From an uncultured Synechococcus sp. (GTDB lineage Bacteria > Cyanobacteriota > Cyanobacteriia > PCC-6307 > Cyanobiaceae), in contig CAJXPL010000025.1 of assembly GCA_913057985.1 (NCBI GenBank), positions 1 through 37,410 of the forward strand: 37,410 nucleotides of DNA, given 5' to 3'. Position numbers and translations under genes: made by a program. The notes below the pieces were generated by a model. It had not been told where the DNA came from. It saw nothing but the letters and a program-made list of their open reading frames with translations, and did no database searches. Each line of letters opens with the position of its first letter. Position 1 is the stretch's first letter. Positions 3,602 through 23,464 of the stretch are shown here, in pieces.

Positions 3602-3784
3602 GGCCTGGGGACAACTCTTTCAAATTTAAGCTGACCGCGCTGTGGAATTGCGGACTCGCCAGACGCATTCGGCGTCATTCCGCTTGGTCCGTCAAGCCAC
3701 CACCAGCGATTGCGTTGGAGACAGAAACTGCGTGGGCAACTCACGGAGCCCTCACTAGTTTCTGATCAAGAGGGTGTTCAGTCG

Positions 3785-6478
3785 ATGTCGACGTCTGTGA
3801 GTTCCACCGCACAGATCGGTGGAGAACCCGCGGAACTTCTGCGTTGCCGCGAAAGGGATGAAGGACACCAGCCCTGGGATCGCTGGGGGACCTATCTGAG
3901 TGATCGGCAGTGGGGCACAGTCCGCGAGGATTATTCCGGCGATGGCAACGCCTGGAACTCCTTTCCCTTCGACCACAGCCACCTGCGCAGCTACCGCTGG
4001 GGGGAGGACGGCTTGCTGGGCCTGAGCGACGAACGCTGTCTGCTCTGTTTCTCTCCCGTGCTCTGGAACGGCAAGGATTCCATTCTCAAAGAACGCTTGT
4101 TCGGTCTCGGCAATCCCGAAGGCAACCACGGAGAAGACATCAAAGACACGATGTATCACCTCGCCGGTACACCAACCGGTAGTTATGCGAAAGCTCTGTA
4201 TCGCTACCCCCATCAGAGCTTTCCTTACCAGCAACTGCGCGACGAAAACCGCAACCGCAGCCGAGAAGAGAACGAATACGAACTGGTCGATACAGGCATC
4301 TTTACGGGCAATCGCTTTTTTGATCTCGACGTTGAGTACGCGAAAGCTTCTCCCGAAGATGTGCTGATCCGGCTCACCATCACCAACCGAGGTCCGGAGG
4401 ACGCCGACCTTCATCTCCTTCCCAGCCTGTGGTTCCGGAACACCTGGAGCTGGGGGGATCCTGACCGGAACCGACCCAGCCTTCGCCTCCAGGACAATCG
4501 GCTCGTGAGTGATGCCGTCGAAGGCCTGGCCGCCTACAACCTGACCTGCAGTGAACAAGGCCCGTGGTTGTTCACGGAAAACGAAACCAACACCGAACGG
4601 CTCTACGGACAAGCCCCAGAGCAGCCCTATGTGAAAGATGCCTTTCACCGCTTTCTGATTGACGGAGAGCAGGGCGCAGTGAATCCGGCACAGACTGGAA
4701 GCAAAGCAGCTCTGCATCTCCAACGCACGCTCCATCCAGGAGAAATCTGGTCGGTGAGCCTGCGACTGAGCCGACACGACCACCAAGGAAGCAAGGCCCC
4801 GGAGCCGGAGGAGACAGCCGCGTTCAACACCTTGATGGATCAACGCCGCCGGGAGTGGCAGGACCACCTGGAATGGGTAGCACCTGGACTCAACGCGGAG
4901 GACCGTGCCATCCATGCCTCGGCTGCTGCCGGGTTGTTCTGGTGCCGCAAGTACTACGCCTGGTATGTGGCCCGGTGGCTGCGCGGAGACAACAACGCTC
5001 CCAGGCCACCCCAGGAACGGTGGCACACCGAAAACGCCTACTGGCGAACCCTTCGGGCCCAAAACATCATCTCGATGCCCGACTGCTGGGAGTACCCCTA
5101 TTTCTGCCAGTGGGATCTGATGTTCCATGCAGTGGCCTTCGCGGAAATCGATCCGGGCGAGGCGAAGCGGCAGTCGCGCATGCTCCGCCAAGCCTCATAC
5201 ACCGCGAACAATGGGCAATCCCCTGCCTATGAATGGGCCCTGTCAGACGCCAACCCACCGATTGGCGCCTGGGCAGCACTGCGGATCTTCCAGATCTCCA
5301 AGCGTCGTTACGGAGAGCAGGACTATCCCTTCCTCCGCGCCAGCCTGCGGGAGCTGTTGCTGGAATACGGATGGTGGGCCAACCGAACGGACCGCAACGG
5401 TGACAGCCTCTTCGAAGGAGGCTTCCTTGGACTGGACAACATTGCCATCTTCGATCGGCGTTACCCACTCAAAGACGGCAGCCGGATCGAGCAATCAGAT
5501 GGAACAGCCTGGATGGGAATGCTCAGCCTCAACATGTTGGAGGCATGCGTTCTTCTCTCTGAAGACAGAGCGGAATACAAAAGCCTGAGCGATCGCTTTG
5601 TCCGCGACTTCAGTCGCCTGACCTACGCGCTGAACAGCCCTGGTGGCAAAGGGTACGTGAACTGGGACGAGGAAGACGGTTTCTACTACGACGTGCTCAA
5701 GCGCCCGGACGGAAGCACCGACTATTTGAGAACACGTTCACTGAGTGGTCTGATTCCGTTGCTCGCCATCGCAACGTTCGACGCCGAAACGGTCGAATCG
5801 ATTCCGTCTCTCGACGTGAGCACCTATCTGCGTGATCTGGGTCGCGAACGCGGAGAGGAGTTTGATTCGATCGCTCATCTTGGATCCTGGCACCGTGGTC
5901 GAATTCTGTTTTCGATCGTGCCTCCGCAACGCTTACGGCGCATCCTCGAAAGGGTGTTCGATGAAGAGGAATTTCTCTCCCCTTACGGCATCCGAAGCCT
6001 CTCCAAGAGCTATGAAAAAACTCCATACAGCTATCAACAGGGTGACGACTACGCCACGATCAACTACAGCCCTGCCGACAGTCCTGTAGCCATGTTTGGA
6101 GGCAATTCCAACTGGCGAGGACCAGTGTGGATGCCGATCAACTACCTGCTGATCGAAGCACTTCAGAAGTTTGCCCACTACTTCGGCGATGATTTCAAGA
6201 TGGAGTTCCCGACGGGCTCTGGTCGCGAATTGAATCTCTGGGACATTTCTCTGGAACTTGAGGAGCGACTGGTTGGCATCTTTAGGCGTGATCGCAATGG
6301 ACAGAGGCCATTCAACGGGACGATCGAGCTGTTCCAAAACGATCCCGAATGGCGTGATCTCTTCCTCTTCAATGAGTATTTCAATGGCTGCAGCGGTGCC
6401 GGCGTCGGTGCGAGTCACCAGACCGGATGGACAGCGATTGTCGCGAAAATGATCACACAACTCCAACGATGGCGCTGA
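3785..6478 (+). CDS. large GH63-type glucosidase
   Basis: An 897-residue protein with an N-terminal beta-sandwich-like half (about 1-370) and a C-terminal (alpha/alpha)6 barrel of the GH63 / mannosyl-oligosaccharide glucosidase type. Barrel landmarks include CQWDLMFHA with Asp444 as a likely catalytic acid, the family block WRGPVWMPINYL starting at Trp777, and the closing HQTGWTAIVAK. There is no signal peptide, so it should act in the cytosol. Known prokaryotic GH63 members hydrolyse alpha-glucosides such as glucosylglycerate, mannosylglycerate or oligosaccharides; marine Synechococcus makes such compatible solutes, so that is an attractive but unproven substrate. This long form differs from the short ~450-residue glucosylglycerate hydrolases. 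I chose the ATG at 3785, although the frame is open to 3710. It lies 50 nt upstream of GMC1 on the same strand. Confidence 0.88.
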   Translation: MSTSVSSTAQIGGEPAELLRCRERDEGHQPWDRWGTYLSDRQWGTVREDYSGDGNAWNSFPFDHSHLRSYRWGEDGLLGLSDERCLLCFSPVLWNGKDSILKERLFGLGNPEGNHGEDIKDTMYHLAGTPTGSYAKALYRYPHQSFPYQQLRDENRNRSREENEYELVDTGIFTGNRFFDLDVEYAKASPEDVLIRLTITNRGPEDADLHLLPSLWFRNTWSWGDPDRNRPSLRLQDNRLVSDAVEGLAAYNLTCSEQGPWLFTENETNTERLYGQAPEQPYVKDAFHRFLIDGEQGAVNPAQTGSKAALHLQRTLHPGEIWSVSLRLSRHDHQGSKAPEPEETAAFNTLMDQRRREWQDHLEWVAPGLNAEDRAIHASAAAGLFWCRKYYAWYVARWLRGDNNAPRPPQERWHTENAYWRTLRAQNIISMPDCWEYPYFCQWDLMFHAVAFAEIDPGEAKRQSRMLRQASYTANNGQSPAYEWALSDANPPIGAWAALRIFQISKRRYGEQDYPFLRASLRELLLEYGWWANRTDRNGDSLFEGGFLGLDNIAIFDRRYPLKDGSRIEQSDGTAWMGMLSLNMLEACVLLSEDRAEYKSLSDRFVRDFSRLTYALNSPGGKGYVNWDEEDGFYYDVLKRPDGSTDYLRTRSLSGLIPLLAIATFDAETVESIPSLDVSTYLRDLGRERGEEFDSIAHLGSWHRGRILFSIVPPQRLRRILERVFDEEEFLSPYGIRSLSKSYEKTPYSYQQGDDYATINYSPADSPVAMFGGNSNWRGPVWMPINYLLIEALQKFAHYFGDDFKMEFPTGSGRELNLWDISLELEERLVGIFRRDRNGQRPFNGTIELFQNDPEWRDLFLFNEYFNGCSGAGVGASHQTGWTAIVAKMITQLQRWR

Positions 6479-6528: not shown

Positions 6529-8127
6529 ATGGATCACTCCACCCATGACGCTCGTCGTCATAACGCTATCGAACCCCAAGCGGATCACTACAACGTGGTG
6601 ATTATCGGCAGTGGCGCGGGTGGTGGTTCTCTGGCCCGAGCTTTAGCCGACTCCGGCCACTCCATTTTGATTCTGGAACGGGGCGGCTGGCTGCCACGGG
6701 AACCGCAAAACTGGGATCCGGTTGAGGTCTTCCAGAAAGACCGCTACGTCTCAACGGACCCCTGGCAGGACAAGCACGGAAAGACGTTTCAGCCGGGAAG
6801 TCACTACTTCGTTGGCGGTGCTTCGAAGCTATATGGAGCAGCTCACTTCCGCTTGCGGGAGAGGGATTTCGAATCGGTGATGCATGTCGACGGCGAATCA
6901 CCGGAATGGCCACTGAAATACGACGTCTTCGAGCCGTATTACCGCAAAGCGGAGGAGTGGTATCACGTGCATGGGCTGCGGGGTGAGGACCCCACCGAGC
7001 CACCGGCCTCCTCCGCGTATCCCCATGCGCCCATCAGCCACGAGCCACGCATGCAAAAGCTGGTGGATGACCTCCGCTCAGCGGGGCTCCATCCATTTCA
7101 CGCACCCACGGGAGTCGCACTCGATGAAGCGAACCCCGCCTTCAGCGCTTGCGTGCGCTGCAACCGCTGCGATGGATTTCCATGCCTGGTTCATGCCAAG
7201 GGTGATGCGGAAGTGATGGGTGTCCGTCCGGCTCTTGATCACGACAATGTGTTCATGCTCATAGAAGCGGAGGTGCTTCGACTCAACACCGATGGGAGCG
7301 GTCGTCAGATCACTGATGTGGTGGTGAGGCACCAGGGAGAAGAACGCCGTTTCAAAGGCGACATCGTGGTCGTTTCCGCTGGTGCAGCCAATTCGGCACG
7401 TCTGTTGCTGATGTCAGCCAACGATGCCCATCCCCGGGGCCTAGCCAACAGCTCCGATCAAGTGGGCAGAAATTACATGTATCACAACTGCAAAGCATTG
7501 GTGGCTCTCGCCCATGAGCCAAATACCACGGTGTTTCAAAAGACTGTCGCGCTCAATGACTGGTATTTCGGCGACAACGACTTCGACTTCCCGATGGGCA
7601 ACGTGCAAATGACCGGTAAAACCAACGGAGCGATGATGAAAGGCTATAAACCGCGGCTCACCGCTCTTGCTCCCACATGGAGCATGGACAAACTCGCGGA
7701 ACACTCACTCGATTTCTGGCTGCAAACGGAAGATCTTCCGCTGCCGAACAATCGGGTCACGATCAATACGAAAGGTCAGATCAAGCTGGACTACACCCCG
7801 ACCAACACCAGGGCATCCGACGAGCTGGCCAACAGACTGGAGGCATTGCTGGACAAGCTGTACCTCAAAAACCATCTCGCCGAACGTCAGATCTATTTCG
7901 CCTCGTCGATGGACATTGCTGCCGTGGGCCATCAATCAGGGACATGTCGCTTCGGCACCGACCCCAGCACCTCGGTGTTGGACACCAACTGCCGCACCCA
8001 CGATGTGGACAATCTGTATGTGGTTGACACGAGCTTTTTCCCAAGCAGCTCAGCGGTGAATCCATCCCTGACAGCCATCGCCAATGCCATCCGTGTGGCG
8101 GACCATCTCAAGGAACGGCTGGGTTGA
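6529..8127 (+). CDS. GMC-family FAD oxidoreductase (GMC1)
   Basis: A 532-residue glucose-methanol-choline oxidoreductase. The dinucleotide motif IGSGAGGGSLA (Gly27 onward) binds FAD. The C-terminal active-site pair is intact: His468 in GHQSGTCRFG and Asn511 in SSAVNPSLT, as expected for alcohol or sugar dehydrogenation. The C-terminal half resembles flavoprotein subunits of membrane-linked sugar/gluconate dehydrogenases more than choline dehydrogenase. A Cys cluster near residue 205 (CVRCNRCDGFPC) recalls the Cys-rich loop of some long-chain alcohol oxidases and could bind a metal or Fe-S centre. No signal peptide is visible. It follows GH63 by 50 nt and converges with the DoxX gene (4 nt between stop codons). 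Its paralogue GMC2 at 21959-23464 has lost the His/Asn pair and the Cys cluster. Substrate and electron acceptor unknown. Confidence 0.9.
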   Translation: MDHSTHDARRHNAIEPQADHYNVVIIGSGAGGGSLARALADSGHSILILERGGWLPREPQNWDPVEVFQKDRYVSTDPWQDKHGKTFQPGSHYFVGGASKLYGAAHFRLRERDFESVMHVDGESPEWPLKYDVFEPYYRKAEEWYHVHGLRGEDPTEPPASSAYPHAPISHEPRMQKLVDDLRSAGLHPFHAPTGVALDEANPAFSACVRCNRCDGFPCLVHAKGDAEVMGVRPALDHDNVFMLIEAEVLRLNTDGSGRQITDVVVRHQGEERRFKGDIVVVSAGAANSARLLLMSANDAHPRGLANSSDQVGRNYMYHNCKALVALAHEPNTTVFQKTVALNDWYFGDNDFDFPMGNVQMTGKTNGAMMKGYKPRLTALAPTWSMDKLAEHSLDFWLQTEDLPLPNNRVTINTKGQIKLDYTPTNTRASDELANRLEALLDKLYLKNHLAERQIYFASSMDIAAVGHQSGTCRFGTDPSTSVLDTNCRTHDVDNLYVVDTSFFPSSSAVNPSLTAIANAIRVADHLKERLG

Positions 8128-17495: not shown

Positions 17496-17607
17496 GGGCA
17501 TCTCCGTCAGGCCGGCAATGAGACAGATGGAGTTGTATTTCCTCACCCAGGGATGACCGTCTGACGCGACGTGTTCATCCTTGGAGCAGACGTTGCTCGG
17601 CTTGCCG

Positions 17608-18108
17608 ATGCTTGAGCTGCTTCCTCCGCTCAACGACAAGAACCTGCCCTGGATCGACGTCATCCACCCCATCGTTGTTCACTTCGTAATCGCGATGGCC
17701 TTGATCAGCGTCGTGTTCGACTTCATTGGCGTGATCAGCCGAAAGAAGAACCTGCTTGAGGTGAGCTTCTGGAACCTGATCGTGGCCACTGTTGCGATCT
17801 TTGTGGCGATCATCTTCGGCCAGGTGGAGGCGGGTCTCGCCAATCCCTACGGCGCATCAAGGGACATCCTCAATGTGCACAGCACCATCGGCTGGTCCCT
17901 CGCCGGTGTGCTGGCCCTGCTCACGGGCTGGCGCTACGTCGCCCGGCAGAAGGACCCGGCGATTTTGCCCAAGGGCTTTCTCCTCCTTGACGTCGTCCTG
18001 GCGGGTCTGGTGGTCACACAGGTGTACCTCGGCGACAAACTGGTCTGGGTTTACGGGCTGCACACGGTTCCCGTCGTTGAGGCCATCCGTCAGGGGGTGG
18101 TGTCGTGA
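17608..18108 (+). CDS. DUF2231 membrane protein A of the oxidase operon
   Basis: A 166-residue protein with four predicted membrane helices (about 20-41, 51-70, 86-107, 124-145) and the DUF2231 signature WIDVIHPIVVHFVIAMALIS. The His residues in HPIVVHF and VHSTIGWSL could be heme or quinone ligands, but that is inference. DUF2231 proteins accompany some terminal oxidases and heme-linked membrane systems, with no settled function. I chose the ATG at 17608; a TTG at 17581 would add nine residues. Its final GTGA overlaps the start of the next DUF2231 gene by 4 nt. It is the first gene of the six-gene ARTO operon. Confidence 0.8.
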   Translation: MLELLPPLNDKNLPWIDVIHPIVVHFVIAMALISVVFDFIGVISRKKNLLEVSFWNLIVATVAIFVAIIFGQVEAGLANPYGASRDILNVHSTIGWSLAGVLALLTGWRYVARQKDPAILPKGFLLLDVVLAGLVVTQVYLGDKLVWVYGLHTVPVVEAIRQGVVS

Positions 18109-18725
18109 TTCTCTTCGCCGCGATCGCATCACCGATCAACGACATCGCCGACTCCCTCGGTGCCAACACCCTTCCCTACGCGATTCCGCTGCACCCCAAT
18201 CTGGTGCACCTGAGCATCGGCCTGTTTGCGATCGCCATCGCCTTTGACTTCGCCGGTGCCTTCTACCCGTTGGAGAAACGGGTGTTCCGCTTTCTAGCGT
18301 TGCCGGTCACCCGCAGCGGCTTCCACGACGTGGGCTGGTACAACCTCGTGGCCTGCAGCGGCATCAGCTTCTTCACCGTGGCTGCTGGGTTCTACGAAAT
18401 GCTGCTGGCGGTTCCGTTGCCGGGAGTTCGCAGCCTGCTCGGCCAAACCGCCATCGACACGATGCTCTGGCATGCCATCGGCGGCGTGGCGATTCTGTTG
18501 GTGATGGTGGCCATGACGATCTGGCGTGGTTACCAACGGTTTGTCTGGCGCAAGGACATGGGCCGTCAGGTCACCTGGCTGTATCTGCTCTGTGGCGCCG
18601 CCATGCTGCTGGTGATGGGTTTGCACGGCAGCCTCGGCGCCTGGCTGGCCAGTGACTTCGGCGTGCACATCACCGCAGACCAGATGCTTGCCGCCGGTGC
18701 CGATCTGCAGGAGGCATTGCCATGA
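18105..18725 (+). CDS. DUF2231 membrane protein B of the oxidase operon
   Basis: A 206-residue paralogue of the preceding protein, with about four membrane helices. It has a similar PLHPNLVHLSIGLFAIAIAF signature with two His, plus an FHDVGWYNLVACSGI segment. The third helix has WHAIGGVAILLV, again His-containing. It starts with GTG inside GTGA (18105-18108), overlapping the upstream stop, and its own stop overlaps the ctaC start (ATGA at 18722-18725), so the whole series is translationally coupled. It may form a heterodimer with DUF2231 A and serve the oxidase as an assembly factor, heme carrier or quinol-interacting subunit; this is inference. Confidence 0.8.
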   Translation: MILFAAIASPINDIADSLGANTLPYAIPLHPNLVHLSIGLFAIAIAFDFAGAFYPLEKRVFRFLALPVTRSGFHDVGWYNLVACSGISFFTVAAGFYEMLLAVPLPGVRSLLGQTAIDTMLWHAIGGVAILLVMVAMTIWRGYQRFVWRKDMGRQVTWLYLLCGAAMLLVMGLHGSLGAWLASDFGVHITADQMLAAGADLQEALP

Positions 18726-19657
18726 CCACAACCGCTCCCAAGAACGGCCCGAACATCGGCGCCATCTTGATCATCAGCATTGCGGTAGCGATCAATCTGG
18801 TGATCGCCAAATTGATGGCGACGTGGTCCTACAGCTGGTTCCCACCCCAGGCCTCGAGCGCAGCGGCGTACGTCGACGATCTGTTCGCCCTGGAGACCGG
18901 CATCGGCTCCTTCATCTTCTTCGGCTGCACCGGCGTGATGGGCTGGGTTCTGTTGTTCAACAGAGCCGGCAAATACGACGAGAGCGACGGGGCACCCATC
19001 GAGGGAAACACCAAGCTGGAGATCATCTGGACGATCATTCCTTTGGTGACGGTCTTCGCAATCGCCGCCTACACGATGAACGTCAACATGAAGCTTCAGA
19101 CCCTCGGTCCGAAGCACAAGTACGCCATCGGCAGTGATCCCACCACGCTGGTGAGCGTCGACCCCAGCGCCGACATCGGACCGATTGATGTGATTGCCCG
19201 CCAGTGGAGCTGGGAGTTCGTCTACCCCAGCGGCGTGCGCAGTTCAGAACTGCACCTTCCTATTGATCAACGGGTGAATCTGCGATTGATCTCGGAAGAC
19301 GTGCTTCACAGCTTCTATGTACCGGCTTTCCGGCTGAAGCAGGACATCATCCCCGGCAGCATCATTTCCTACAGCCTCACCCCCACCAAGGAGGGCAGGT
19401 TCCGGTTGCGGGACGCCATGTTCAGCGGCGCTTACTTCTCCCAGAACCAGACCGACGTCATCGTCGAATCCGAACAGACCTACGACGGCTGGCTGAAGGC
19501 AACGGCCAAACAACCCTTGCGGCCCGGCCTCGATCCAGGACGGCCGCTGTACGACCGACGCCTCAGTCGGGGAGACAAGGGCTGGGCCACGGTGCCGCCA
19601 GCTCCTGCCCCGATGGTGAACGACCCCGGCGATCCCTCCCTCCCCCACGACGCCTGA
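18722..19657 (+). CDS. ctaC: alternative terminal oxidase subunit II lacking CuA (CtaC-II)
   Basis: A 311-residue subunit II of a heme-copper oxidase with two N-terminal helices (about 10-33 and 60-80) and a further hydrophobic stretch at about 99-117. A periplasmic or lumenal cupredoxin domain includes QWSWEFVYPSG and SEDVLHSFYVPAFRLKQDIIPG. Where a CuA centre would have the Cys-x3-Cys-x3-His-x2-Met ligands, residues 231-245 read DAMFSGAYFSQNQTD, so all ligands are replaced. Loss of CuA is the known mark of cyanobacterial ARTO-type oxidases, thought to take electrons from quinol rather than cytochrome c. The C-terminal tail (about 262-311) is Pro-rich. It overlaps DUF2231 B by 4 nt and precedes ctaD by 8 nt. 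Confidence 0.88.
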   Translation: MTTTAPKNGPNIGAILIISIAVAINLVIAKLMATWSYSWFPPQASSAAAYVDDLFALETGIGSFIFFGCTGVMGWVLLFNRAGKYDESDGAPIEGNTKLEIIWTIIPLVTVFAIAAYTMNVNMKLQTLGPKHKYAIGSDPTTLVSVDPSADIGPIDVIARQWSWEFVYPSGVRSSELHLPIDQRVNLRLISEDVLHSFYVPAFRLKQDIIPGSIISYSLTPTKEGRFRLRDAMFSGAYFSQNQTDVIVESEQTYDGWLKATAKQPLRPGLDPGRPLYDRRLSRGDKGWATVPPAPAPMVNDPGDPSLPHDA

Positions 19658-19665
19658 GACGCGCC

Positions 19666-21354
<1,689 letters not shown>

Positions 21355-21357
21355 CCG

Positions 21358-21954
21358 ATGACCAGTGTCAATCCCGATCTAAAGCTCAATCACACGCCGG
21401 GGCATGTGAAGCACGACGGCCACAACATGACCGGGTTCGTGATCTTCCTCTGCTCTGAAAGTGTCATTTTCCTTGCCTTTTTCGCCGGCTACGCGGTGCT
21501 GAAGCTGACAGCTCCTCAATGGCTACCGGACGGCGTGGAAGGGCTGGAGGTGCGCATGCCTCTGATCAACAGCGTGGTGTTAGTGAGCTCCAGTTTCGTG
21601 GCCTATCTCGCCGAGCGTTATCTCCACAAGGGCAACCTCTGGGGCTTCCGAGCGGTATGGCTGCTCACCATGGCCATGGGGTCTTACTTCGTTTTTGGCC
21701 AATACATCGAGTGGTCAGAACTCAGCTTCAGCCTCAGCAGCGGCGTGTTCGGGGGCCTGTTCTATCTACTCACAGGTTTTCACGGCCTGCATGTGATCAC
21801 CGGAATTGGGTTGATGGGCCTGATGTTGGCGCGATCCTTTGTCCCAGGGAACTACGACAAAGGCGAGATGGGCGTCGCTGCAGTGAGCCTGTTCTGGCAC
21901 TTCGTCGACGTGATCTGGATTCTTCTCTTCCTTCTGATCTACGTCTGGCAGTAA
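21358..21954 (+). CDS. ctaE: alternative terminal oxidase subunit III (CtaE-II)
   Basis: A 198-residue subunit III of about five membrane helices. It carries the family landmarks IFLCSESVIFLAFFAGY with the helix I Glu, LLTGFHGLHVITG and LFWHFVDVIWILLFLLIY. It has no catalytic metals; subunit III stabilises subunit I and its proton uptake. The five-helix form without the first two helices of mitochondrial subunit III is usual in bacteria. It starts 3 nt after the ctaD stop codon and ends 4 nt before GMC2, so GMC2 is translated as part of the oxidase operon. Confidence 0.93.
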   Translation: MTSVNPDLKLNHTPGHVKHDGHNMTGFVIFLCSESVIFLAFFAGYAVLKLTAPQWLPDGVEGLEVRMPLINSVVLVSSSFVAYLAERYLHKGNLWGFRAVWLLTMAMGSYFVFGQYIEWSELSFSLSSGVFGGLFYLLTGFHGLHVITGIGLMGLMLARSFVPGNYDKGEMGVAAVSLFWHFVDVIWILLFLLIYVWQ

Positions 21955-21958
21955 TCCC

Positions 21959-23464
21959 ATGATCATCGACGACAACCACTACGACGTCATCGTCATCGGC
22001 AGCGGCGCCGGTGGCGGCACGTTGGCCGGAGCTCTGAGCCGCAAAGGCAAAACCGTGCTGGTGCTCGAACGCGGTGGGGCGATGGCCCTGGAAGACCAGA
22101 ACGTGGCCGATGTGGATCTCTTCCGCAAGGATCGCTATCACCCCAAGAGTGAGCGGTGGTTCGGCCCCGACGGCGATCCCTTCGCCCCGCAAACCACGTA
22201 CGCCCGCGGCGGCAACACCAAGATCTGGGGTGCGGTGCTGGAACGCATGCGTGAACAGGATTTCGGCGAAATCGCTCTCCAGGATGGAGTCTCGCCGGCG
22301 TGGCCCCTGGATTACGCCGACCTGGAGCCCTACTACCAAAAGGCCGAGCAGCTCTATCGCGTGCATGGCAAAGCGGGGGTTGATCCCACCGAGCCCAAGC
22401 GAAAGGGGGATTTCCTGGCCCCACCAAAACCGGTGGAGCCCTTCCTGGAACCCCTGCGGGCCGCACTCCAGCGTCAGGGCTGTCAGCCCTACGACATCCC
22501 GATCAGTTGGTCGGAGGACGCTGACGATCCCAGTGGTGATGCGCAGTTGTTTGGACTGCAGGTGGGTGATCCAAAACGGCTCACTGTGCGTGACAACGCG
22601 CGGGTGTTGCGCCTGCACGTGAATCCCAGTGGCCGAGCCATTCGAGGCGTCGAAGCTGAGGTGAACGGCGATGCCTGGCTGTTTCGCGCCGATGTCGTGG
22701 TACTTGCTGCCGGTGCCATCAACACACCGGCCATCCTGATGCGCTCGGAAACGGCCAACCATCCCAAGGGCATCAGCAACGGATCAGACCAGGTGGGGCG
22801 AAATCTGATGAACCTGCAGCTCACCTCGATCCTGCAGCTGGCTACCGAACGCAACAACGGCCGCTACGGCCGCTCGCTTGGAGTCAACGACTACTACTGG
22901 GGTGACAAGAACGTCAGTTTTCCCCTGGGGCACATTCAGGCCGCCGGTGGCGTGTTGCAGGACGCACTGTTCGCTGAGTCACCACCGGTGCTGTCGTTGG
23001 TCACCAAGCTGATTCCCGATTTCGGTCTTGAGCGTCTGGCCTCGCGCTCGGTGGCCTGGTGGGCCATGACGGAAGTGCGGCCGGATCCCCACAACAAGGT
23101 GTGGCTCAACAACGAACAGATCCGAATCAATTACATCCCCAACAACCGCGAAGCCCACGACCGGCTGGTGTATCGCTGGATCGACACCCTTAAGGAGGTG
23201 GAAAAGGACCCGATCACGAAGGTGGTGCTGAAGGCTCCCACCCATGCCCGTGGTGAAGCACCTCTGAGTGTTGTTGGCTTCAGCTGCGGCACGTGCCGCA
23301 TGGGGGAAGACGCCGCCAGTTCAGTGGTGGATTCCAGGGGCAAATGCCATGAACTGGAGAACCTCTACATCGCCGACAGCAGTGTTTTCCCCAGTTGCCC
23401 GAGTGTTGGCCCTGGCCTCACGGTGATCGCCTTGGCTCTGCGGCTGGCCGATCACCTGAGCTAA
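21959..23464 (+). CDS. GMC-family flavoprotein with lost catalytic pair (GMC2)
   Basis: A 501-residue GMC-fold protein and paralogue of GMC1. The FAD motif VIGSGAGGGTLAG is intact, as is ARGGNTKIWGAVL. The two canonical C-terminal active-site residues are replaced: Phe441 stands where GMC1 has His468 (GFSCGTCRMG versus GHQSGTCRFG), and Gly484 where GMC1 has Asn511 (SVGPGLT versus AVNPSLT). The Cys-rich loop of GMC1 is also missing, while new Cys residues appear near the active site (Cys443, Cys446, Cys480). It is therefore unlikely to oxidise alcohols by the usual mechanism; it may be an electron-transfer flavoprotein, use another base, or be structural. Found as the last gene of the ARTO operon, 4 nt after ctaE. 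No signal peptide is visible. Confidence 0.88.
   Translation: MIIDDNHYDVIVIGSGAGGGTLAGALSRKGKTVLVLERGGAMALEDQNVADVDLFRKDRYHPKSERWFGPDGDPFAPQTTYARGGNTKIWGAVLERMREQDFGEIALQDGVSPAWPLDYADLEPYYQKAEQLYRVHGKAGVDPTEPKRKGDFLAPPKPVEPFLEPLRAALQRQGCQPYDIPISWSEDADDPSGDAQLFGLQVGDPKRLTVRDNARVLRLHVNPSGRAIRGVEAEVNGDAWLFRADVVVLAAGAINTPAILMRSETANHPKGISNGSDQVGRNLMNLQLTSILQLATERNNGRYGRSLGVNDYYWGDKNVSFPLGHIQAAGGVLQDALFAESPPVLSLVTKLIPDFGLERLASRSVAWWAMTEVRPDPHNKVWLNNEQIRINYIPNNREAHDRLVYRWIDTLKEVEKDPITKVVLKAPTHARGEAPLSVVGFSCGTCRMGEDAASSVVDSRGKCHELENLYIADSSVFPSCPSVGPGLTVIALALRLADHLS

Follow-up and report, generated by a model that had tools for sequence, protein, structure and literature searches.

What a flavoprotein of the GMC superfamily might do in a respiratory operon once the catalytic residues of its enzyme relatives are gone is the question raised by the window, meaning the whole stretch of 37,410 nucleotides analysed here, a contig of an uncultured Synechococcus sp. 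The gene in question, GMC2, is the last of an operon for the terminal oxidase ARTO, and its product lacks the C-terminal His plus His/Asn pair that is the hallmark of active GMC alcohol and sugar dehydrogenases. A second GMC gene of the window, GMC1, retains that pair. To our knowledge, the electron supply of ARTO in these bacteria is not settled. The features that the argument draws on are as follows.

3710..6478, + strand: GH63/MGH1-like glycoside hydrolase; in many relatives it lies between GMC2 and GMC1
6529..8127, + strand: GMC1, a relative of GMC2 with His468/Asn511 intact and a four-Cys motif (CVRCNRCDGFPC); Pfam, alignment to GMC2
17581..18108, + strand: DUF2231 membrane protein a; H29, H34, H100 and H161 invariant (n = 43 rows); Pfam and alignment
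18105..18725, + strand: DUF2231 membrane protein b; H30, H35, H123, H174 and H188 kept in at least 95% of 65 rows; Pfam and alignment
18722..19657, + strand: ctaC (ARTO subunit II), CuA cysteines absent; profile match and aligned rows
19666..21354, + strand: ctaD (ARTO subunit I); Pfam COX1
21358..21954, + strand: ctaE (ARTO subunit III); Pfam COX3
21959..23464, + strand: GMC2, a GMC-fold flavoprotein of 501 aa without the His/Asn pair, final gene of the ARTO operon; Pfam GMC_oxred_C/N, model, fold match
22976..23014, + strand: codons 340-352 of GMC2, the ESPP...LIP hydrophobic insertion of ARTO-linked GMC proteins; E[AS]PP in 150/150 orthologues vs 0/26 GMC1-type
23279..23281, + strand: codon 441 (Phe) of GMC2, the catalytic-His position
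23285..23296, + strand: codons 443-446 of GMC2, C-G-T-C (CxxC), next to what was the active site; in 132/150 orthologues, 0/26 GMC1-type
23408..23410, + strand: codon 484 (Gly) of GMC2, the catalytic-Asn position; Gly, Ser or Pro in 150/150 orthologues

A GMC gene within the ARTO operon

The gene order in the window is DUF2231a-DUF2231b-ctaC-ctaD-ctaE-GMC2, all on the forward strand. GMC2 starts 4 nt past the ctaE stop at 21954, a spacing already given by the sequence-only reading and borne out by the open reading frame at 21959-23464; beyond it lies a pyridine-nucleotide disulfide oxidoreductase gene in the opposite direction. A ctaC without CuA cysteines accompanied by ctaD and ctaE identifies the operon as that of an ARTO (type-1), the two CuA Cys positions being Ser (101/101) and Phe or Tyr (98 and 3) in 101 aligned rows. 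ARTO here is a CuA-less quinol-type oxidase. The model of the DUF2231 protein has a pLDDT of 80 and gave nothing in Foldseek at E 0.001 or better, while VIA returned matches at Z 11-14 (designed bundles, COX subunit III, cytochrome b561 and others) that perhaps reflect a mere common arrangement. A haem b role for the conserved DUF2231 His residues would be a guess.

Linkage between GMC2 and ARTO extends far beyond the window. Among the matches listed for the 201 genomes of the family set, ARTO-type ctaD was found in 93 and GMC2 in 94, with both in 93/93; the only GMC2 genome outside those 93 (G105) holds a GMC2 fragment in a fragmented assembly. Scoring of the family went by listed matches and may let fragmentary copies escape, and two genomes with weak, partial-looking ctaD matches (G111, G153) were scored as having neither gene. 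In the class set of 388 genomes, both genes were found in 164, GMC2 only in 5, ARTO-type ctaD only in 41 and neither in 178, which places GMC2 in 164/205 genomes with ARTO-type ctaD (Fisher p 6e-62, with relatedness ignored; the genomes are related and the counts are not independent events). The class cut-offs were a best E of about 1e-130 or better for GMC2, a chosen value that set aside 47 weaker class matches, and 1e-205 for ARTO-type ctaD. Of the 41 genomes scored with ctaD only, two carry a GMC2 cut by a contig end (L205, L206), two have CuA and are ordinary COX (L236, L237), three have loci that end at the contig (L203, L204, L207) and one (G516) was left out of the loci read; among the 5 scored with GMC2 only, G206 and G280 do have an adjoining ctaD.

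The assignment of GMC2 to the ARTO operon, first made from the window, is upheld by its neighbours elsewhere: a same-strand ctaE lies at most 2.5 kb upstream of GMC2 in 84/85 loci of the family, the window's copy (L001) included, and in 72/80 loci of other families. Counted as distinct proteins, these figures are 70/71 and 72/79. In the family the one locus without it (L004) holds an unrelated GMC. The eight loci without ctaE in other families comprise one gene seen twice (L101/L103), two second copies of GMC2 (L114, L133) whose genomes also hold an ARTO-linked copy, and the further genes L125, L140, L146 and L174, leaving five GMC2 genes, besides the two second copies, that lack an upstream ctaE within that distance. 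GMC2 is under purifying selection like other operon members, with dN/dS of 0.066-0.086 in five pairs vs 0.020-0.037 for ctaD; the single pair that could be read for ctaC and the two DUF2231 genes gave 0.071-0.075. These values, together with full-length frames, rule out pseudogene decay.

A further 45 ARTO or ARTO-like loci were read from genomes scored as lacking GMC2. No GMC or NDH-2 match was found beside the oxidase genes in 34/45 (3 of them at a contig end and 2 of CuA-type COX), so that no partner of this kind is indispensable to ARTO; within these 34, ctaE itself gave no match in a few, e.g. L198, L229 and L235. An NDH-2-like flavoprotein gene follows ctaE in five loci (L199, L201, L230, L231, L232) and lies between DUF2231b and ctaC in one (L200), and the ctaC adjoining all six is also without the CuA motif. 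The name was given on Pfam Pyr_redox_2 matches in L199, L200 and L201 and on 78-86% similarity to the L201 protein in L230, L231 and L232; no NCBIfam model scored above cut-off for the two NDH-2-like proteins tried. Three loci hold intermediate GMC genes, described below, and two are those with GMC2 cut by a contig end.

ARTO-type ctaD is present and GMC2 absent in 4/4 genomes listed for genus g99. In one g99 locus (L227) prephenate dehydrogenase is followed by ctaD and then ctaE, which we take to be the order in Synechocystis, and on the gene order of this one locus g99 may be that genus; at another (L198) an EamA gene precedes ctaD. Loci of family f32 (L194-L197, L202) have the order DUF2231-DUF2231-ctaCDE with no GMC gene. 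This order matches the ARTO operon of Anabaena sp. PCC 7120, alr2729-alr2730-coxB3-coxA3-coxC3, for which the accessible passages of the source name no GMC gene (PMC6616624). Presumably alr2729 and alr2730 are the DUF2231 pair, and f32 may be Anabaena-like; the window shares DUF2231-DUF2231-ctaCDE and then adds GMC2. Because the Anabaena operon as published in those passages names no such gene, and the loci taken for Synechocystis do not have one, GMC2 may easily have been overlooked.

The altered active site and its surroundings

GMC2 belongs to the GMC superfamily (PF00732/PF05199; 69 bits vs a cut-off of 24.6 and 29.6 vs 23). Its Pfam matches above cut-off are GMC_oxred_C, GMC_oxred_N and FAD_binding_2, and the same profile search returned no NAD(P)H- or ferredoxin-binding domain above cut-off. 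A GSGAGGG dinucleotide-binding FAD motif stands near the N-terminus, and E37 and D473, invariant in a 91-row alignment, are taken as FAD contacts; GMC2 would thus be expected to bind FAD. The structural model is confident (pLDDT 91.6, pTM 0.93). In it the N-terminal residues are followed at once by the opening strand of the FAD domain, and a cytosolic place for GMC2 is for that reason likely.

The closest solved folds found with VIA are those of fructose dehydrogenase (Z 37.4) and Burkholderia FAD-glucose dehydrogenase (Z 37.2), with 460-468 aligned residues at 22-27% identity. The former is represented by the large subunit of the membrane-bound enzyme (8k6j, 9jqa and others) and the latter by 6a2u and 8grj. 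Both complexes deliver electrons to the respiratory chain, and their flavoprotein carries a Cys cluster (3Fe-4S). GMC2 differs from them in lacking the His/Asn pair; it also lacks the four-Cys motif CxxCxxCxxxxC of GMC1-type proteins, and no gene for a small subunit or a cytochrome c subunit was seen among the operon genes of the window. The top NCBIfam match of GMC2 is the MftG mycofactocin dehydrogenase family (TIGR03970), but at 85 bits vs a cut-off of 387 GMC2 is not a member; MftG is a GMC protein that feeds a respiratory chain.

GMC1-type proteins (window 6529-8127; L050, L054, L058 and others) are 37-42% identical to GMC2 in the seven rows compared. The GMC1 of the window, at 37% identity, has the two Pfam domains of GMC2. 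Their alignment sets F441 and G484 of GMC2 opposite H468 and N511 of GMC1, confirming in the open reading frames what had been read from the letters. A phmmer alignment to fructose dehydrogenase brings both columns, by our mapping with a numbering offset of 669, onto the sites mutated in its solved variants H1147A and N1190A, as these are named in the structure titles. The orthologues compared were 150 distinct proteins of more than 440 residues, 70 from the family and 80 from other families, with identical proteins counted once. Left out were the unrelated GMC of another contig (L004), three proteins shorter than 440 residues (L044, L045, L158) and L009, in which GMC2 is joined, on a Hyphomonadaceae-binned contig, to the apparent C-terminus of another GMC protein in what appears to be a chimeric assembly; matches below 850 nt, e.g. 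L048, never entered.

Across these 150 proteins, position 441 is Tyr in 53, Asn in 42, His in 20, Phe in 16, Gly in 10, Ser in 7, and Ile and Leu in 1 each, while position 484 is Gly in 84, Ser in 62 and Pro in 4. Not one has both His and Asn: the His is kept in 20/150 and the Asn in none, as against both in 26/26 GMC1-type relatives. With eight residue types at 441, no fixed new base took the place of the His, and Phe/Gly as a fixed new pair is ruled out. The sequence-only reading had asked whether Phe/Gly is conserved beside ctaCDE; what proves conserved is the absence of the pair (0/150 with both), not the residues that replaced it. No fixed His or Asn occupies either column in the orthologues. 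The proposal of a rebuilt active site is sustained, since the substitutions recur in orthologues from many families under a dN/dS of 0.066-0.086 and are neither peculiar to one strain nor a sign of decay.

Three cysteines near the site in GMC2, C443, C446 and C480, had been described as new, a view that needs correction. Cys443 is new relative to GMC1-type proteins and widespread (135/150); with Cys446 it forms a CxxC (C443-G-T-C446) beside the site that occurs in 132/150 orthologues, is absent in 18/150 and is found in 0/26 GMC1-type proteins. Cys446 itself is not new, as 24/29 GMC1-type rows have Cys there, and Cys480, present in only 88/150, is ruled out as a family-wide feature. Conversely, the four-Cys motif, possibly an electron exit, is present in 25/26 GMC1-type proteins and 0/150 GMC2.

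Other residues set the two groups apart. An E[AS]PP segment followed by a hydrophobic stretch is found in 150/150 GMC2 and 0/26 GMC1-type proteins, and Trp407 and Gln78 are each found in 150/150 vs 1/26. D335, E340, H400, W367 and W407 are fixed in GMC2 and not in GMC1-type rows, and 55 polar or aromatic positions of GMC2 are at least 95% conserved. The ESPP...LIP insertion, whose block 341-350 has a pLDDT of 57 in the model, could be a docking loop. An amphipathic membrane helix at 342-363 was considered and rejected, the stretch having a low hydrophobic moment and being hydrophobic, not amphipathic. Prochlorococcus-like GMC2 proteins (L085, L027, L097) have about ten additional residues near position 190, including a Cys.

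Between the two groups stand three ARTO-linked GMC genes located after ctaE (L233, L209, L219), found in loci scored as lacking GMC2. In L233 the His/Asn pair is intact, alongside the E-A-P-P segment, the CxxC and a four-Cys motif with one Cys replaced; L209 and L219 have Asn/Ser at the two positions, an E-A-P-P-type segment, the CxxC and a retained four-Cys motif. L120 and L153 both carry His and Ser at the two active-site positions. A maximum-likelihood tree of 30 rows places GMC1-type proteins, L233, L219, L209, L120/L153 and other GMC2 in a series with starred branches; the tree is unrooted, and its reading as a series treats the GMC1-type proteins, among which other phyla are represented, as the outer side. 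On that reading, the pair would have been lost only after ARTO had captured the protein and the insertion and CxxC had arisen. GMC2 may thus offer a case of stepwise enzyme conversion inside a respiratory operon with intermediates still living.

Proposed electron entry and its alternatives

The reading preferred here makes GMC2 an FAD protein dedicated to ARTO, probably peripheral and cytosolic, that would pass electrons toward quinone or ARTO; its probability is put at roughly 0.45, somewhat short of even odds. An active GMC dehydrogenase would have been captured into the ARTO operon, where it would have gained the hydrophobic loop (ESPP...LIP), Trp407 and the CxxC, and would afterwards have lost the four-Cys motif along with the Asn and, in most cases, the His. 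A GMC protein lacking its base should be poor at hydride abstraction from alcohol, and GMC2 would accordingly take hydride from an alcohol poorly. The retained flavin would most likely pass electrons from a base-free donor of ferredoxin/flavodoxin type or a thiol, the latter being made possible by the CxxC. The acceptor would be plastoquinone or the ARTO/DUF2231 membrane part directly, and then O2. An electron-entry flavoprotein with a base-free donor is proposed because the FAD site is kept, a quinol-type oxidase adjoins and NDH-2-like flavoproteins occur in similar operons. The data themselves show gene linkage, loss of the pair, purifying selection, a predicted fold and, on one tree, an order of changes; FAD binding, a cytosolic place, membrane contact, donor and acceptor are inferred. 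The "electron entry subunit" of the sequence-only reading would fit these surroundings, given the NDH-2-like or GMC flavoproteins in the same operons elsewhere. Counting against the preferred reading are the 34/45 loci with no such partner, the GMC2 genes that lack a nearby ctaE, the lack of an NAD(P)H- or ferredoxin-binding Pfam match above cut-off, the 18/150 orthologues with no CxxC and the loss of the four-Cys motif. The wider claim that in many cyanobacteria ARTO is more than a three-subunit quinol oxidase, forming a larger complex whose flavin entry subunit would be a converted, base-free and CxxC-bearing alcohol dehydrogenase with a thiol or ferredoxin-type donor, is a good deal more doubtful.

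The main rival is a non-catalytic subunit for assembly, stability or redox sensing, in which the FAD would be structural or would report redox state to ARTO through the CxxC disulfide and the flavin. Eight residue types at 441 would be expected if no reaction needs that position, docking could be the job of the hydrophobic ESPP insertion, which is conserved, and the oxidase can exist without GMC2. The 55 highly conserved polar and aromatic positions seem, however, to exceed the needs of a scaffold, and the flavoproteins in the same operons elsewhere are dehydrogenases; such a role is judged rather unlikely. Next comes a substrate dehydrogenase still at work, either with another base or on a substrate that needs no strong base. 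The residues fixed in GMC2 and not in GMC1-type rows (D335, E340, H400, W367, W407) and the His441 kept in 20/150 would suit it, but no single residue substitutes for His/Asn at 441/484 across the family, and this reading too is unlikely, if worth keeping in mind.

A flavin ferric-reductase partner is a much weaker candidate. It would lie behind the Fe(III) reduction and low-iron niches to which ARTO is linked in passages of one source, with a phenotype reported in Synechocystis (PMC10119275). The idea is weak because the phenotype is that of Synechocystis, whose likely relatives here, genus g99, are without GMC2 in 4/4 genomes listed, and the iron-reduction role is itself disputed in the part of a second source that was available (PMC12983203). 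A degenerate passenger, that is, a GMC copy decaying after duplication, would account for the lost catalytic residues but can hardly be reconciled with the dN/dS values, the 150 distinct orthologues of more than 440 residues in many families and the rarity of stop-containing frames among the matches listed.

GMC proteins that serve respiratory chains are already known; a version that lacks the base pair and is linked to ARTO across cyanobacteria did not turn up in the literature searched. GMC is mentioned nowhere in the available passages of PMC10119275 and PMC5862535, the term "glucose-methanol-choline" is absent from the literature examined, among the matches listed, and no literature tying a GMC oxidoreductase to a cyanobacterial terminal oxidase was found, subscription papers and supplements aside. 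Whether such oxidases contain further subunits is stated as not clear in the accessible part of PMC6616624. GMC2, carried by most genomes with ARTO-type ctaD in the two sets searched, is a candidate overlooked partner that bears on this question.

GMC1 and the glycoside hydrolase

GMC2, a GH63/MGH1-like glycoside hydrolase and GMC1 follow one another in 22/45 GMC2 loci, many of them incomplete (loci including L017-L049). In the window the GH63-GMC1 pair is set apart, its end lying some 9.5 kb ahead of the first DUF2231 gene and some 14 kb ahead of GMC2. Among the matches listed for the family set, GMC2 is present in 57/57 genomes with GMC1; an obligatory GMC1-GMC2 pair is ruled out, as 37/94 family genomes with GMC2 are without a GMC1-type match among those listed. 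The dyad-less GMC2 is thus often accompanied by a sugar-type dehydrogenase whose pair is intact and by what may be a source of sugar, and a division of labour is possible.

GMC1-type genes were also seen in metagenome-assembled genomes labelled Vicinamibacterales, Bacteroidetes, Chlamydia trachomatis (a doubtful label) and Nitrospira (L050, L052, L053, L054, L055). Two of these genes, L052 and L055, have a GH63-like neighbour.
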